Source: Lactarius indigo
Lineage: Eukaryota; Basidiomycota; Agaricomycetes; Russulales; Russulaceae
NCBI GenBank assembly: GCA_025766275.1
Contig: JAFKAC010000037.1
Span: 372,001-436,000 of the forward strand
Length of the DNA: 64,000 nucleotides
Direction of reading: 5' to 3'
The notes under the pieces are model-generated. The model was not told the origin of the DNA, ran no database searches, and saw only the letters and a program-made list of their open reading frames with translations. Made by a program: the position numbers and the translations under genes. Positions 14,208 to 41,518 of this stretch are shown piece after piece (the stretch's first letter is position 1; the number at the start of each line of letters is the position of its first letter).

Positions 14208-17200
14208 CTATCTCCCACCATCTCCAGAAACGCCTATGTGCGCGCACGTCACTTCAGTAGCCATAATAAAGCCTGCTAATAATTCGTCAGAGTTCTCTTG
14301 ATAAGATGCAGTAAGGTGTTGTCGAATTCTCGAATCAATATTTGCCTCCCGATAGTCAACTTCCGCACGGGTTAAAGCTGATTCGGGTGACATGTTTGAG
14401 AGACGTAAAAAAGTGGCGTGCTTCAAGATGAGGATAACAGCTTCGAAAACGTTAAATAAGACCTAGAAATTATAAAGCGAAATACCAAGGATCAAATGAT
14501 AATCGCCAATACTGGTGGCAGTGAGCTAGAGAGAGAAATATCATAAACCAGGGACGGGTGACCGTAATACAAATAAAACACATTTTTAATGGTGGGGAGC
14601 GACATAATCTGCTTCAACTTATCAAAAGTGAGATGCTTGGTCGAGTAGATGTACGGAGAGTTGTACGGAGAGAGCTTACAATCTGGAGAACATGATGTGA
14701 ACACTATTAACAGGTTGGAAAGAGGTGTTCACGCACGCGCTACGATAGTTGGCCAAGTATGAGTATGATCAATGATGGGCCAAAGACAGGGGTGATAAAA
14801 CGCAGCAAGGCATACAGCAACTTACATCCTGAAGAGCCAAGAAAGAGGTCGTTAGCAGGCTCAGAATGGAGTGAAGTATGGCAGCCGCTCACTTGCTGGA
14901 GAGCAGAGGACGGGCGTCGTCAGCAAGCTTGAAACGTGGCAAGCCGCGGCAGCCACTCACTTCCTGGGTGGTCAAGGACAGGCACCGTCAGCAGGCTTGA
15001 GACGCGGCAAGTCATGGCGGCCACTCACTTCCTGAACAGGGTCATCAGTAGGCCGTAAATTCAGTAATACATGGCAACCACTCACAGACTGGAGAGTCGA
15101 GGATAGTAATAGTCAGCATGCTTGAAACGTAGGGAGCCACGGCAGCTGCTCACAGGCTGGAGAGCCGAGAATGGAGGTCGTCAGCAGGCCTTAGCTCAGT
15201 GAACCACGGTAGCCACTAACCAACTGGAGAGCCGAAGATGACCATCGTCAGAAGGCTTCAAATGAAGCAAGCCACGACAGTCACTCACGTACTGGAGAGC
15301 CGAGGACACATATCGTTAGCAGACTTCAAACACAGTGAGCCACGGTAGCCACTCACATACTGGTGGACCAAGGACGTGTGTAGTCAGTGCTCTTCAAATG
15401 CAGCAAGCCACGGAAGTTGCTCACTCTCTGGAGAGCCGAGGACACACGCCATCAGTATGCTTGGAATGCAGCAAGCCACATTAGCCACTTACCAACTGGA
15501 AAGCCGAAGAAAGCCGCCGTCAGTACGCTTCAGACGCAGAGAGCCATGATAGACACTCACGTCCTGGAGAGTCGAGGACGGCTGTCATCAGCATATCCAA
15601 AACGCAGCGAGCCATAGCAGCACTCACATACTGTAGGGTTGAATACAGCCATTGTCAGAAGGCTTGAAACCCGAAACCCGCAGCAGCCACTCACCGGCTG
15701 GAGAGCCGAGGAGAGTCGTCGTCAGAAGGCTTGAAGTGGAGTAAGCCATGGCATCCACTCACATCCTAGAGAGTAGATGGCAGACATCGTCAGTACGTTT
15801 GGAACGCAGTAACAACGGAAGCCGCTCACTTCCTGGAGAGCCAAGGACAGGCGTCGTCAGTAAGCTTAAAACGTGGGGAGACACGGCAGCCACTCACATC
15901 CTGGAGAGCCGAGGATGGGGGTTGTCAGCATGCTTGAAACGTAGGGAGCCACGTCAGCGGCTCACCAACTGGAGATCCGAGGATAGCCGCATCAGCATAC
16001 TTAAGATGCAGCAAGCGATGGTGGGAACTCACCGACTGAAGAACCGAGGACGGCCGTCGTCAGCGGGTTCAAACGCAGCGAGTCACGGAAACTACTCACC
16101 AACTGGAGAGCCAAGGATAGCCGTCGTCAGCAGGCTTCAAAAGCGGCGAGATATGGCACCCACTTCCTGGACAGCCAATGACAGCCGTCGTCAGTACGAT
16201 TGAAATGCAGCGAGCCACGGGAGCCACTTACTCTCTAGAGGGTCAAGGAAAGGCATCGTCAGTAGGCCTGAAACGCAGCAAGACATGACAGCCACCAACC
16301 AACTGGGCAGCCGAGGAGAGCAGTCATCAGTAAGCTTGAAACACAGCGGGCCACGGGAGCCACTCACAGACTAAGCGCCGGGGACGGCCGTTGTCAGAAG
16401 GCTTAAAACGCAGCGAGTCACGGCAGCAACTTACAGACTGAAGGGCCGAGCACAGGCGTCGTCAACAGGCCCGAAACACAGTGAGCTCCCGCAACCACTC
16501 ACAGACTGGAGAGCCGAGCACAGGCATCTTCAGTATATTTGAAATCCAGCAAACCATACCAGCCGCTCACCAACTAGATAACCGACAGGCGTCGTCAGCT
16601 GGTTGTTTAAACGCAACGAGCCATGACGGTCACTCACAGACTGGAGAACCGAGGTTAGGCGTCATCAGCAAGCTTGAAGCACAGAGAGGTCCGGTAACCG
16701 CTCACAAACTGGAGGGCAGAGCGCCGGTATGGTCAGGTCAGTTGATCTCAAAACTGCGAGTAAACGTTGGCACTCACATACTAGGAGTTGGGCGGCATCA
16801 TGCATCATGATCCATGTATCACAATTCAAGGCTTTATCAACTTACCCAGATATATGGAAATGGGATAAGACATTCCCGGACTATATGCTCGCTGCCAGTA
16901 TGGGAACGCACACTGAAATGTTTGTTGTGATTACCGCACGTCTCGCACCGTCAATTAGCGCACTCACCGGGTCAACGCCGTTTTAACACTCAATGTTAAA
17001 TTACCTCTCTGCACGGTCATAAGCATCAATCTGATGATGTCATCGTTCAATGCTGCAGCCGTGGTTTCAATAAGCGTATTGCAGCGCATATTTTGTCTGT
17101 GCATTTCTAAAAAAAAAACGTTAGCATCTAACATTGGTATTTACCTCTCAACTTACTTTCTAATCGCACGAATATAACATCATCACCGAGTGGACGCAGG

Positions 17201-18084
17201 TAATGCTCTTGAAACAGTTTGTCCGCCACATCTGATACATTATCATCTGAGCTTCCGAAATCCTCCACATGGATTTCCACATTTCGCCAAAATTGATCGT
17301 ATTTTGTAAAGACCGCAACGACAGGGACTTGAAATTATTCAGTTGAATTTTGTCGTAAATGTGCGCAGTGACGCACCATTACGGTCGGGACAGATGTCCT
17401 TGAAAAATTTGAGGTCGAGTTGTGGACGTTGGTTGTCCATTGGCACGCAGTACCTCAAAATATGATAGTCAGTTGTCGTAACTGTAAACGCGTGAACACT
17501 CCAGAGTACAAACCATATCGCATGCAATCGGTCACGCAGCCGCCTTTCTCCACACTTGCGTCGAATAAAGTCTTGCAAAATCCCGAGTTCTTCCATGCTT
17601 CCCGACTCAATTCCGCGGGAGTCGTGAAAAACATATCCCTTATAGTTAGAGAACACAAGTTCGTCGTCGATCGTGTGCTCGCCTCGCTGGCTCTATGTTT
17701 AGAGGTAACTGAAGAGAAGTACTGCTGCCACTAACGTCCATGGATGGATCGAGCGTGACCTGGTCGGTAGTAAGATCAGATTTTCAGAGAAAACTTCGCA
17801 CCGTGTACCTTCTGCCTTCTCTGAGAATCTCGTCGGTATATAATGGGGCTCTCCGTTGCTTCACAGACCCTTTGCAGGATGGACGTCTTTCCTGAGTTTG
17901 CCCTTCCTATAATAAGCACTCGGAACTGGATCTTCGGAATTTGTCGAGGCGTTTGCTGCGTGTCCATTGAGCGACGAAAGCAAGAGCCACGGATAGGTTT
18001 GATCCCGTCCTCAATCGATGGTTCCCACGGTTCACCTTCGTGACTGGACCGCCACTGTGCCACCAGTTGTTCAACCAATTGCAT
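14208..18084 (-). CDS. G-domain (P-loop GTPase-like) protein, gene containing a tandem intron array
   Basis: P-loop GTPase-like protein of a family expanded in agaricomycetes; function unknown. Seven clear exons on the minus strand: 18084-17809, 17759-17736, 17692-17514, 17453-17377, 17327-17157, 17106-16968, 16912-16846, all phase-consistent. Exon 1 carries FRVLIIGRANSGKTSILQR (Walker A). Later exons give VFSNYKGYVFHDSRGIESG (the DxxG-like region), LHAIWYCVPMDN, and VPVVAVFTKYDQF (TKxD). Exon 7 ends VRECLIPFPYIW. The intron after it leads straight into 30 repeat modules. Candidate C-terminal exons lie at about 14,720-14,208, the clearest being a helix-rich piece with VFEAVILILKHATFL and IRQHLTASYQ up to a TAG at 14,208. 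How these connect, and whether the locus still works, is inference. Confidence 0.7.
14826..16780 (-). repeat. Tandem array of 30 intron-like units with 3-nt microexons
   Basis: Degenerate tandem repeat, period about 67 bp (65-72), 30 modules. In the gene sense each unit reads GTGAGT (or GTAAGT), a spacer containing CTGAC/CTAAC/CTGAT, then CTCTCCAG or a similar YAG acceptor, then exactly 3 nt, then the next GT donor. GT and AG are kept in 30 of 30 modules while the 3 nt between vary (13 different triplets, none a stop). The first module sits exactly one intron length (65 bp) after exon 7 of the G-domain gene, and the last ends in GATGTAAGTTG at 14,828-14,818. The unit has no interspersed unique spacers and is not a CRISPR. 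Confidence 0.85.
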
Positions 18085-34613: not shown

Positions 34614-37042
34614 ATGACAGTCTCCCCCGCTTCTTATTCCCCCGCTTCTTATTCCCCCGCTTCTTATTCCCCCACTTCTTATTCCCCCGCTTCTTATTCC
34701 CCCACTTCTTATTCCCCCGCTTCTTACAACTTCACGTCAAATATTGACCCCTCCCTACTTGGGGACCAACAGAGCTCTCATTACGACCCCCGTTCTTATC
34801 GGCAATATGACTCCGGCTCTGACCGGCCACGCTCACATATGGGCTCCAATTACGTGAGTCCGGCAATTCTCTATTGTATTCATAGTGCTGACACAACACA
34901 AGTCACCTGATCTAGAGGCGGTGGTCTCGAACGCATCCGCAAGGCTGCTAGAGAGTAACGGCCATTTCGTACGCGTCCAGATGACCTCTGAGAAGAGAGC
35001 CATGGAGATCACGAGGCTCGAAGAAGCCCTTACCACCTTAACGAAGGAGAATGACGAGCTGAAGGAGGAGATCAGGGATATGGGTTTGGAACTCAAGACG
35101 CTCAGGTGCGCATAGATCTATCCGTTATTTTCCAGGGTGTATGCGTCACTTATAATGCACAGAGGAACTCTTGAACTCTTCGCCAAATCACAACACGAGA
35201 ACACTACGGGCGGCCGTGGAAGCGGCATACGTTCTGGCCTCAGAACCGGGACTGTCCCAGCGAAGCCAGCACCTCGAAAGCGCACGGACTTCTCGATGGT
35301 CATTCAGTGGACGAAGAAGGAATTCAGGCGTGCCTTGGCGAAGATAAGTAACGCCCGTCGAGGGGAGACGGACGGCTCTGCGACATCTGTACGGAAAAAG
35401 AGAAAGCCTGGGTGCCCACGCAAAGGTTCCAACGACAACCACGTAACACCACACTTCTACTTGGAAAATGAAGATGGAACGCCTGTCGATGAAGACCGGA
35501 TAGCGGACATGAGTCGCAAGGCACGCATGCTATGGGCCACGCTCGACGAGGAAGGCTTGGCCCCAGCAACATTCGGTCACATTACCGATACTGCGTGGGA
35601 GTACTATTCGTGCATGATGTTGGCTGACGAAGCCCACGACTTCCTTCTCCTCTGTGATGACGGGGAGTGGAAGCTCTGGGAATGGTCCACACGGTCATAT
35701 CCATCTTGGCACCGCAACAGGAACCCCGGGTCGAAGGATGGTGCATCAAAAACCCCTGCAAAAGGTACGTCGATTCATTACCACCTCAGTACACTCAGAT
35801 ACACACAGGTTCGAGTCAAGAACTAGACGCCGAGAGTGACGGCGTCAATGCAAGAGAGGAAAGTCCCACTGACAGCCACAACGCAGGAGAACAGCGAACC
35901 GCTGGTGACAACCACGACAACGACACCGAGGAACAGACCCCAGCCGACGGTGACAACGACAATGGGAGTGAACCAGAACACTCTGTGACACAGGGGATAA
36001 ATCCCTTGCCCAATCCTTCGGTACGCAGCTCATGTTTACTTCATTTCAAACCTAACATCCATCTCAAGACCGCAGAGATACGAACCACTCCGTCGTCAGT
36101 GGTGACCGACCCTTTGTGCCCTCTCCCATCTTGTCCACGCTGCCCCCACTCATGTACCCATTCCAGTACTCCCGCCCCAGCAAGATCAGCATCTATGGGT
36201 ACCAACGGTACGTACTTGATGTATAGACGTGACCACACTCACGATACTTCACAGCGCCCCTTGGGGTGGGCCCAGAGAGGTCATCTTCTGATACCTCAAA
36301 CCCGCCGCCACAAAGTGGACCAGATCCGACTGACTCAACTGCCTCGTCGGAGGTGAACCCTTCCAACAATGGTACTGGCATAGAAGATATGCCCACTCCT
36401 GGAGCAGCAGCGACCGCGTCCAACCCTCTCCGAATCAGGCTCACATTGGGCCGCGCAAATAACCCAACACCCGACATGACCCACACAGCAACCAACGACG
36501 TTATGGGCCACGATAATAACAACACCGGCGAGTCGTCGCCATCTGCTAACAATGGTAGCTCCAAGACCAATGGGAAGGGCAAGAAACGGAGTGCCGAAAG
36601 TGACCCATCGACGGCGTCATCCAAAAAGCAGAAGAAGGCTGATGCCATGGCAGAGCCCACCGAGGGCAATTCCATAAAGTAAGTCGAACACACACCACGC
36701 TCCTCATGCTGACTACACCTACAGGAATATCTGCATGCGCCAATGGAACGCAACGCAACCTGGAGGACAAGGCCTCCTGCGCGAATTCGAATCATACTTC
36801 AAAACACTCTTGGAAGCCAACAAAGAGGTACGCACGTTGTGTGGGGGTGTTGCACGCACAAACTGCTCACAAGTGTCTCAATTTTTCCATTAGCCCTTCA
36901 AGAAGGAACTCCGTGCTGCACAAGTCGCAGCAGTAAGTTCGACATATTCATTCCTCACACAGGCCTACTCACAGCCTCACCACGGCAGAGGAAGGTCAAG
37001 ACGGCCGCGAAGAAGGGCACCGGCATTACCAACAGAACTTAA
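34614..37042 (+). CDS. Large accessory protein of tnp2 element with SPASY repeats and coiled coil
   Basis: Multi-exon gene: 34614-34853, 34903-35105, 35163-35764, 35809-36020, then further exons to TAA at 37,040-37,042. The N-terminus has seven SPASY/SPTSY pentads encoded by a 15-bp tandem repeat, then a coiled coil (ITRLEEALTTLTKENDELKE). A central domain contains FSMVIQWTKKEFRRALAKI, HFYLENEDGTPVDEDRI and ARMLWATLDEEGLAPATFGH with WEYYSCMMLADEAHDFLLL and YPSWHRN. Then come acidic Asp/Asn/Glu-rich and Pro-rich stretches, a basic GKGKKR nuclear-type signal, and a C-terminal piece with MRQWNATQ and EFESYFKTLLEANKE. The central block resembles proteins common in mushroom genomes; function unknown. 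The exon border after 36,020 is uncertain. Confidence 0.6.
34621..34725 (+). repeat. 15-bp coding minisatellite (SPASY pentads)
   Basis: Seven copies of TCCCCCGCTTCTTAT or the variant with ACTTC; the reading frame is kept because 15 is a multiple of 3. Confidence 0.85.
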
Positions 37043-41071: not shown

Positions 41072-41518
41072 TCATTTTACCAAACATAAGAACAAATGAA
41101 CCAAATCAGCGGCCATAATGAAGTCTGAAAATGACTTGTCGGAATGTTCTTGAGAAGGTGCAGTAAGGTGTTGTCGAATCTTCAGATCAATATTTGCCTT
41201 GCAATATTCAGCGTCCACGTCAGTTAAAGGTGATTCAGGTGACGTGTTTGAGAGACATAACAAAGTCGTGTGCTTCAAGATGAGGATAATAACCGCTTTA
41301 ACAAAAAGTTAAATTGGCGCTAAAAATAGGGCTCTCCATCGTACCACATGTTCTTTGTGGGATGTATGTGTTTGATAAGGACTTGGAACTAGATCTTTGG
41401 AATTCATAAAAGCGCTTGTTGCGTTTGTTGTTGAGCGTCGGAAGCGAAAACCATTGATCAATTCGATCCCACTCTCGATCAGTAGTTCACACAGTTCACA
41501 TTCCTCATTTATCGTCAC
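41072..41518 (-). pseudogene. Relic of the G-domain gene lacking its G domain
   Basis: The piece 41,278-41,072 encodes LLCLSNTSPESPLT and IRQHLTAPSQEHSDK, matching the candidate last exon of the minus-strand gene at 14,426-14,208. The piece 41,518-41,309 encodes a degraded exon-1-like stretch (FRFRRSTTNATSAF). The two are almost adjacent, so everything between (G domain and intron array) is missing. This supports that exon 1 and the far C-terminal exon belong to one ancestral gene. Confidence 0.55.

Follow-up and report, generated by a model that had tools for sequence, protein, structure and literature searches.

The exons of micro-exon genes (MEGs) have lengths that are multiples of 3, and fungal introner-like elements, which place many near-identical spliceosomal introns in a single genome, are inserted in many genes. 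In the MEGs of Schistosoma mansoni, as outlined in one account of them, very short exons (3–81 bp) of mixed sizes are separated by introns of up to 5 kbp and the encoded proteins are highly variable (PMC10526429). The bicycle and megacycle genes of aphids likewise carry many microexons (more than 100 in one gene) but, as far as the published description goes, these are not 3-nt exons arrayed between near-identical introns (PMC9168663). In the Podospora hnwd allorecognition genes (het-d, het-e, and het-r), a repeat array is reported to be extremely polymorphic between alleles and to undergo concerted evolution, the repeat being a WD40 coding unit that controls recognition (PMC2873952). Introner-like elements have been characterized as invasive, multiplying introns (PMC4457414), the ratchet points of recursive splicing as a juxtaposed acceptor and donor (PMC8605326), and stwintrons as introns that interrupt a splice signal (PMC8469720). 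For fungal microexons, a 2024 paper states that none with a function had been described in filamentous species, and that experimental tests had by then been made in Schizosaccharomyces pombe only (PMC11121469).

Here, we describe an array of one-codon exons in a GTPase-like, minus-strand gene of the milk-cap Lactarius indigo, found within a stretch of 64,000 nt that we call the window (contig JAFKAC010000037.1, positions 372,001–436,000, of assembly GCA_025766275.1). The array is real and bears the marks of coding sequence, and splicing very probably proceeds through it one codon at a time; we consider it likely that 32 predicted one-codon exons are joined one after another into an in-frame linker between a G domain and the C-terminal exons. 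Like MEGs, the arrays combine very short exons whose lengths are multiples of 3 with highly variable products, but their exons are single codons, their introns (52–73 nt, typically ~65 nt) are tandem copies rather than long sequences, and the product is a fungal G-domain protein rather than a schistosome one. The aphid genes resemble them in the number of microexons and differ in organism and protein. Array polymorphism and concerted evolution would be shared with the hnwd genes if the near-identical gene copies that show them here are, as is likely, alleles; the Lactarius repeat is an intron, with just one codon retained in place of a WD40 unit. Introner-like elements are likewise many near-identical introns in one genome, but the Lactarius introns follow one another in tandem at one-codon intervals, and the array loci detected all belong to one gene family: 39 of 40 groups of matches adjoin the same exon of that family and the other is a fragment, the array query being one that could miss single copies elsewhere. 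As in recursive splicing and in stwintrons, removal of one intron would expose the next donor, but each Lactarius step would add a codon; acceptor and next donor are separated by 3 nt in 1107 of 1109 units, and linkers are present in cDNA-like proteins. In the open-access literature, searched by titles and the starts of abstracts, no array of one-codon exons was found. We rate the coding format as new, assembled from known parts: spliceosomal introns, microexons, and recombining repeats.

The window gene is predicted to run from 17967 to 14208 on the minus strand, to which all of its coordinates refer. Exon 1 (17809..17967), whose translation carries the P-loop GRANSGKTS, is followed by exon 2 (17736..17759), exon 3 (17514..17692), exon 4 (17377..17453), exon 5 (17157..17327, also matched by other genome DNA), exon 6 (16968..17106), and exon 7 (16846..16912), which ends in ...FPYIW. 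Joined, the seven exons give the open frame MDTQQTPRQIPKIQFRVLIIGRANSGKTS...FPYIW, in phase 0 at the end of exon 7. A 65-nt intron, GTAAGT...TAG (16781..16845), precedes the first one-codon exon; both this intron and the phase had been correctly given in an earlier sequence-only reading, made by a model from the letters of the window. The array itself (14826..16780) consists of 30 one-codon exons with 29 tandem introns of 54–69 nt between them, and decodes as YFSLSSSLRELSLDEDPYDLRYYLPSEEQD. Two further one-codon exons lie beyond it, namely CGC (14737..14739), preceded by an 86-nt intron in a tail layout similar to that of the paralogues read, and ATT (14680..14682), preceded by a 54-nt intron. 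The predicted C-terminal exons follow: LKQIMSLPTIKN (14582..14617; comparable to blocks in the proteins P0012, P0121, and P0137), LTATSIGDYHLIL (14486..14525), and a last exon from AVILILKHATF... to the stop codon TAG (14208..14440). The whole predicted model has 42 exons (7, 32 of one codon, and 3) and 41 introns, all GT-AG, and encodes 406 residues in one open frame ending at TAG; as the length of a one-codon exon cannot break the frame, this openness tests only the absence of stops and the phases of the flanking exons. The sequence-only reading had described 30 tandem units of intron plus one-codon microexon. The microexon array in a minus-strand gene is borne out and is larger than claimed, with two further one-codon exons here and at least 39 loci in the genome; the count of 30 fits the microexons, but only 29 introns are tandem copies, the supposed thirtieth unit being the 86-nt intron of another type.

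In the window array, 30 AG-NNN-GT sites form one minus-strand chain spaced at 57–72 nt (mostly 67/68), with 13 distinct triplets and no stop among them, so that the constant 3-nt spacing, the GT and AG throughout, and the triplet count of the sequence-only reading all recur. The longest strict chain of this kind had 30 sites on the minus strand of the window and 2 on its plus strand; across 20 dinucleotide shuffles, no chain exceeded 3. A branch motif CTRAY, which had been ascribed to every unit, is present in 27 of 29. When the units are aligned, as that reading had proposed, a profile made from the 31 aligned window units has AG, GT, and the branch A at 100%, compared with 39–97% in most other columns; the triplet columns (42–55%) are among the most variable but not alone in that, and the claim that the 3 nt vary most holds to this extent in the window taken alone.

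Proteins with a P-loop G domain carry the motifs GxxxxGK[ST] and [NT]KxD. Both occur in the translated window exons, as GRANSGKT and TKYD. The related protein P0012 scores 19.2 against Pfam MMR_HSR1, below the cut-off of 21.9, and a fold search with its predicted model (mean pLDDT 64.3) returned no match at E ≤0.001, the best reaching 7.9e-3 with a TM of 0.27. Several L. indigo proteins, including P0008, P0023, and P0055, have an N-terminal extension of ~150 residues before the G domain, which the window model does not have. Elsewhere in the window, a second copy of the C-terminal exon lies at 41102–41290 on the minus strand (59% over 63 residues); no second G domain or array match was found in the window, and it is likely a gene fragment. 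A 15-bp tandem repeat of 6.9 copies with 95% matches occupies 34623–34726.

A genome DNA search with the window array gave at least 96 matches, which fall into 40 groups (the best candidates being those scored). Thirty-nine of these groups have a match to the G-domain gene's exon 5 no more than 1.5 kb away, and the fortieth (C268:81030) is a fragment; the L. indigo genome thus holds at least 39 array loci, all beside the same G-domain exon and many near-identical to one another. Searching with exon 5 gave at least 49 matches, 39 of them with arrays. Among these matches, C1 and C175 form a divergent pair, of which C1 was read and contains an array of 84 sites (L031; C1:1970901-1977600), spaced at 58–91 nt and free of stops. 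Altogether 22 arrays were read, comprising 21 of the at least 39 (20 fetched and the window) and the divergent paralogue L031, and they consist of about 30 to 84 short introns, one codon apart. These 21 loci and the paralogue support the earlier proposal that intron plus one-codon exon were amplified in tandem without a shift of frame. Two G-domain copies, L032 and L033, had neither an array nor an exon-7 match within the 5 kb fetched and look truncated. A divergent G-domain subfamily, by our own grouping, accounts for six exon-5 matches, and no array was detected in the one copy read (L028 region, minus strand, from 7397 downwards); this subfamily could represent the state before arrays arose.

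The constraint on splice signals was examined with a profile built from window units cut in mid-intron, such that the splice region was internal and no conditioning on splice sites was involved. Applied to the 22 arrays, it gave 1127 hits, of which 1109 span the splice region and 18 do not. AG and GT were each present in 1108 of the 1109 aligned units, the exon was exactly 3 nt long in 1107, and none of the 1109 had a stop. Over the 961 hits of full length, variability was highest in the three columns of the exon (39, 42, and 46% consensus), and no deletion occurred there. Among 993 array introns (52–73 nt), CTRAY was found in 922, compared with 119 after shuffling, and in 842 it sits 24 nt before the intron end. 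The own profile of L031 agrees, with AG, GT, and the branch A at 100% in 84 aligned units, triplet columns at 34–45%, many gaps in the intron columns, and no exon of a length other than 3 nt among 83 units. The exceptions are few: a 6-nt exon or shifted donor in L013, a GTGAAG donor in L014, a GC donor in L023, and two breaks of frame, one through a 4-nt exon in L015 and one through a unit with a damaged acceptor or exon in L027 (42 sites), whose near-copies L019 and L028 are intact at that point.

The triplets themselves carry signatures of coding. Stops were counted in 19 arrays, L012, L019, and L027 being omitted because they are near-copies of others, and codons were taken only between normal units. 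None of 939 codons was a stop, against 107.4 expected from the base composition of each array position by position, a deficit whose nominal probability is not literal, since the units are copies and some arrays are related gene copies, so that neither the stop nor the NAG counts are independent. All three stops are missing from a repertoire of 48 sense triplets; when L027 is included, one TGA appears, in its damaged unit, and this is the sole stop-like triplet found. Codons ending in AG are also avoided, with an NAA:NAG ratio of 219:11 in the arrays, whereas the ordinary exons of these genes give 340:223 (nominal p = 5e-27); by residue, the effect is significant alone for E and K but not for Q (p = 0.21), and seven of the 11 array NAG codons belong to L031. 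An NAG triplet would create a rival acceptor, and we count its avoidance as a second sign of coding. GTN codons amount to 1.7% in the arrays and 8.9% in ordinary exons. Abundant residues in the decoded linkers are E, R, L, F, and D.

Protein searches gave 162 proteins from three sets of matches (the best 120 of 605, 2 of 2, and the best 120 of 407). Eight of them come solely from JGI contigs of 1.1–3.0 kb, and because these contigs are intron-free over the part of the gene covered, a cDNA origin is suggested. Three, P0012, P0121, and P0137 (contigs of 1.4–3.0 kb), read from the G domain through W into a linker and on to TIQN...AVILILK, a block that is also encoded after the array in L. indigo paralogues. 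With limits set by eye, the linkers measure 59, 35, and about 48 residues, respectively; P0121 starts within the G domain and P0137 is without the P-loop end. These linkers support the splicing and translation of one-codon exons in related fungi, although, being known from protein sequence, they could sit in ordinary exons of the source species. Others of the eight appear to be part-spliced. In P0064, W is followed by four residues and then by a unit intron in translation (score 83, against at most 47 in shuffles); in P0085, by 11 residues and a weaker unit match (36 vs. 30 in shuffles); and in P0162, by 18 residues and a tail starting with VSG whose score of 30 is not above shuffles (31). The residues before the tail in these three could represent a longer exon 7. 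P0053 has five residues before a unit in a shifted frame (59, a score that has no shuffle control of its own; 35 vs. 33 in frame 0), and P0037 ends just past exon 7 with no significant unit match (18 vs. 22 in shuffles).

Annotation fails at the arrays. Numerous annotated Lactarius proteins either terminate where the array begins or run on into one of its units, and NCBI models doing the latter include P0065 of L. pseudohatsudake (104 vs. 47 in shuffles) and P0139 of L. tabidus (82 vs. 48), while P0146 of Flammula alnicola (Agaricales) reads into a unit-like intron (52 vs. 41); the failing models point to putative arrays in other species. P0008, a partial annotated L. indigo protein, ends in VRSHDSTKAEDIIRKCLLPFPRIW, which is the exon 7 reading of L025 on the same contig as the window, and stops exactly where the L025 array starts. 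In P0026 and P0112, the gap between W and the C-terminal block is bridged by other predicted sequence. The L. tabidus models P0136 and P0154 both have DHDLDP immediately past the exon-7 motif, a stretch that is possibly a linker part in ordinary exons, or else a set of correctly predicted microexons.

Arrays are of two kinds, static and dynamic. Within single arrays, introns are 7–33% diverged and codons differ at 57–71% of positions across all 22, and the corresponding ranges are 7–18% and 57–70% in the dynamic arrays (L009, L010, L016–L018, L020–L023, L025, and L026). In most arrays, introns are slightly more alike between units that share a codon, so codon and intron are linked, if weakly. 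Two pairs are static, with all units colinear: in L011/L012, introns differ by 0.6% and 33 of 34 codons match, and in L019/L028 the values are 4.0% and 38 of 42. The pairs L016/L021, L009/L010, L017/L020, and L025/L026 have gene bodies that are 97–99% alike in the 5' part and 96–99% in the 3' part, and yet unit number and codon order differ within each pair. The codon strings of L009 and L010 have a common subsequence of 16, against a shuffled mean of 16.8, and thus no likeness beyond shuffles; L025 and L026 show little (27, equal to the shuffled maximum), and likeness is clear in L016/L021 (27, maximum 22) and L017/L020 (48, maximum 35). Such near-identical pairs are probably the two haplotypes of a dikaryon, as judged from the mirrored flanks of C218 and C259 and the 94–97% identity of C270 and C160 along the fetched stretches.

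Codons have also been replaced within colinear stretches. Where both flanking introns were at most 5% diverged, 149 colinear codons from nine pairs, one of which yielded none, had Hamming distances of 0, 1, 2, and 3 in 104, 10, 12, and 23 cases, counts in which the pairing of units may err in homogenized arrays, above all L009/L010. Judged by eye, the incoming codons are among those that these arrays already use often. Replacement of whole codons beside nearly unchanged introns likely means that the linker is kept hypervariable by unit exchange, and short-tract exchange between units is the simplest account, because intron ends are nearly identical in all units. In a separate comparison, exon vs. 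intron divergence was 5.1 vs. 3.9% in L019/L028, 2.6 vs. 5.4% in L027/L028, and 3.1 vs. 0.7% in L011/L012. Frame, stop codons, and splice signals are strongly held, and for these the selection proposed in the sequence-only reading is upheld; residue identity looks only weakly constrained.

Several other readings of the array can be set against these data. Were it removed as one long intron, the C-terminal exon would directly follow exon 7 in the transcript, the inner sites would be decoys or recursive intermediates, and no codon of the array would be retained; the L. tabidus gene model P0090 does join W directly to the C-terminal block TEQVVSLPAIQ, which is what skipping or absence of the array would give, and exons of 3 nt are difficult for most spliceosomes. 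A removed array, however, has no need of 3-nt spacing, of stop avoidance (0/939), or of NAG avoidance, and P0012, P0121, and P0137 have linkers, which makes this reading highly unlikely. Alternative splicing from any donor to any later acceptor would instead let one gene produce a mixture of linkers, all in frame because every exon is one codon. The near-uniformity of donors and acceptors and the phase 0 of the exons would allow it, and incomplete splicing is suggested by the JGI proteins in which a unit-like tail comes after 4, 11, or 18 residues; yet no isoform set of one gene occurs among the proteins examined, and near-consensus sites at the normal fungal intron length would favour splicing from neighbour to neighbour, so we hold such mixing to be unlikely. 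A non-coding minisatellite, in which GT and AG persist merely through recent copying, would fit arrays whose introns are just 7% diverged, but in the window and L031 the introns are 31–33% diverged with AG, GT, and the branch A still at 100%, stops number zero, and exon length is fixed although intron length varies; these old arrays lead us to reject an ordinary minisatellite as scarcely credible. Equally little probability attaches to a role of the introns as hosts of small RNAs, like that of the tandem introns that contain SNORD115 and SNORD116 in SNHG14, a gene whose description gives a superficially similar picture of tandem introns and tiny exons (PMC11608373): the array exons have coding signatures, and an Rfam search of window positions 14600–17000 at E up to 1 found no match, on which ground a snoRNA host was rejected. 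Saturation of an ordinary exon by introners is disfavoured by the small number of codon types in the arrays (7 among the 44 codons of L009).

A different objection concerns the codon differences between near-identical copies, which might be errors of assembly, polishing, or unit pairing in arrays that are real but less variable. The swaps do fall where flanking introns are identical, that is, where short reads mis-map, and pairing by intron similarity is weak in homogenized arrays such as L009/L010. Against this, unit numbers differ too (59 vs. 47 and 58 vs. 44), array ends are colinear with codons mostly kept, and the static pairs, L011/L012 and L019/L028, are almost swap-free by the same method (1/33 and 0/25). 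Errors as the general explanation are unlikely, though some of the swaps could be polishing or pairing artefacts.

Under codon-by-codon splicing, each short intron would be recognized by itself (intron definition), so that, once an intron has been removed, the newly added codon would be followed immediately by the next GTGAGT donor. Less certainly, unequal exchange or short conversion among units, alleles, and paralogues may keep the frame, which would always stay intact because every unit is an intron plus one codon, and the array might serve as a platform for codon-by-codon shuffling that keeps the linker hypervariable. We further suggest, tentatively and with the balance somewhat against it, that milk-caps rewrite codons by means of these arrays, with near-identical introns as recombination handles and codons copied between units, alleles, and paralogues, so that gene copies with bodies only about 1–4% diverged could encode linkers that are unrelated and some 28 to 84 residues long; the encoded GTPase would be polymorphic and act in recognition or signalling, its repertoire possibly widened by in-frame combinatorial splicing. 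If codon-by-codon splicing is correct, every amino acid of a protein segment has an exon of its own, and no shorter exon could preserve the frame by itself; a fungal spliceosome copes with dozens of successive 3-nt exons; and minimal exon length and intron definition become directly testable. Introns would also gain a concrete use as recombination handles for codon-level shuffling that is always in frame, and automatic annotation would be expected to break at Lactarius arrays, as it does in P0008. In the divergent paralogue L031, the decoded linker contains a hydrophobic block in which 10 Cys fall within 23 residues, and the units of this block look like a recent sub-family.
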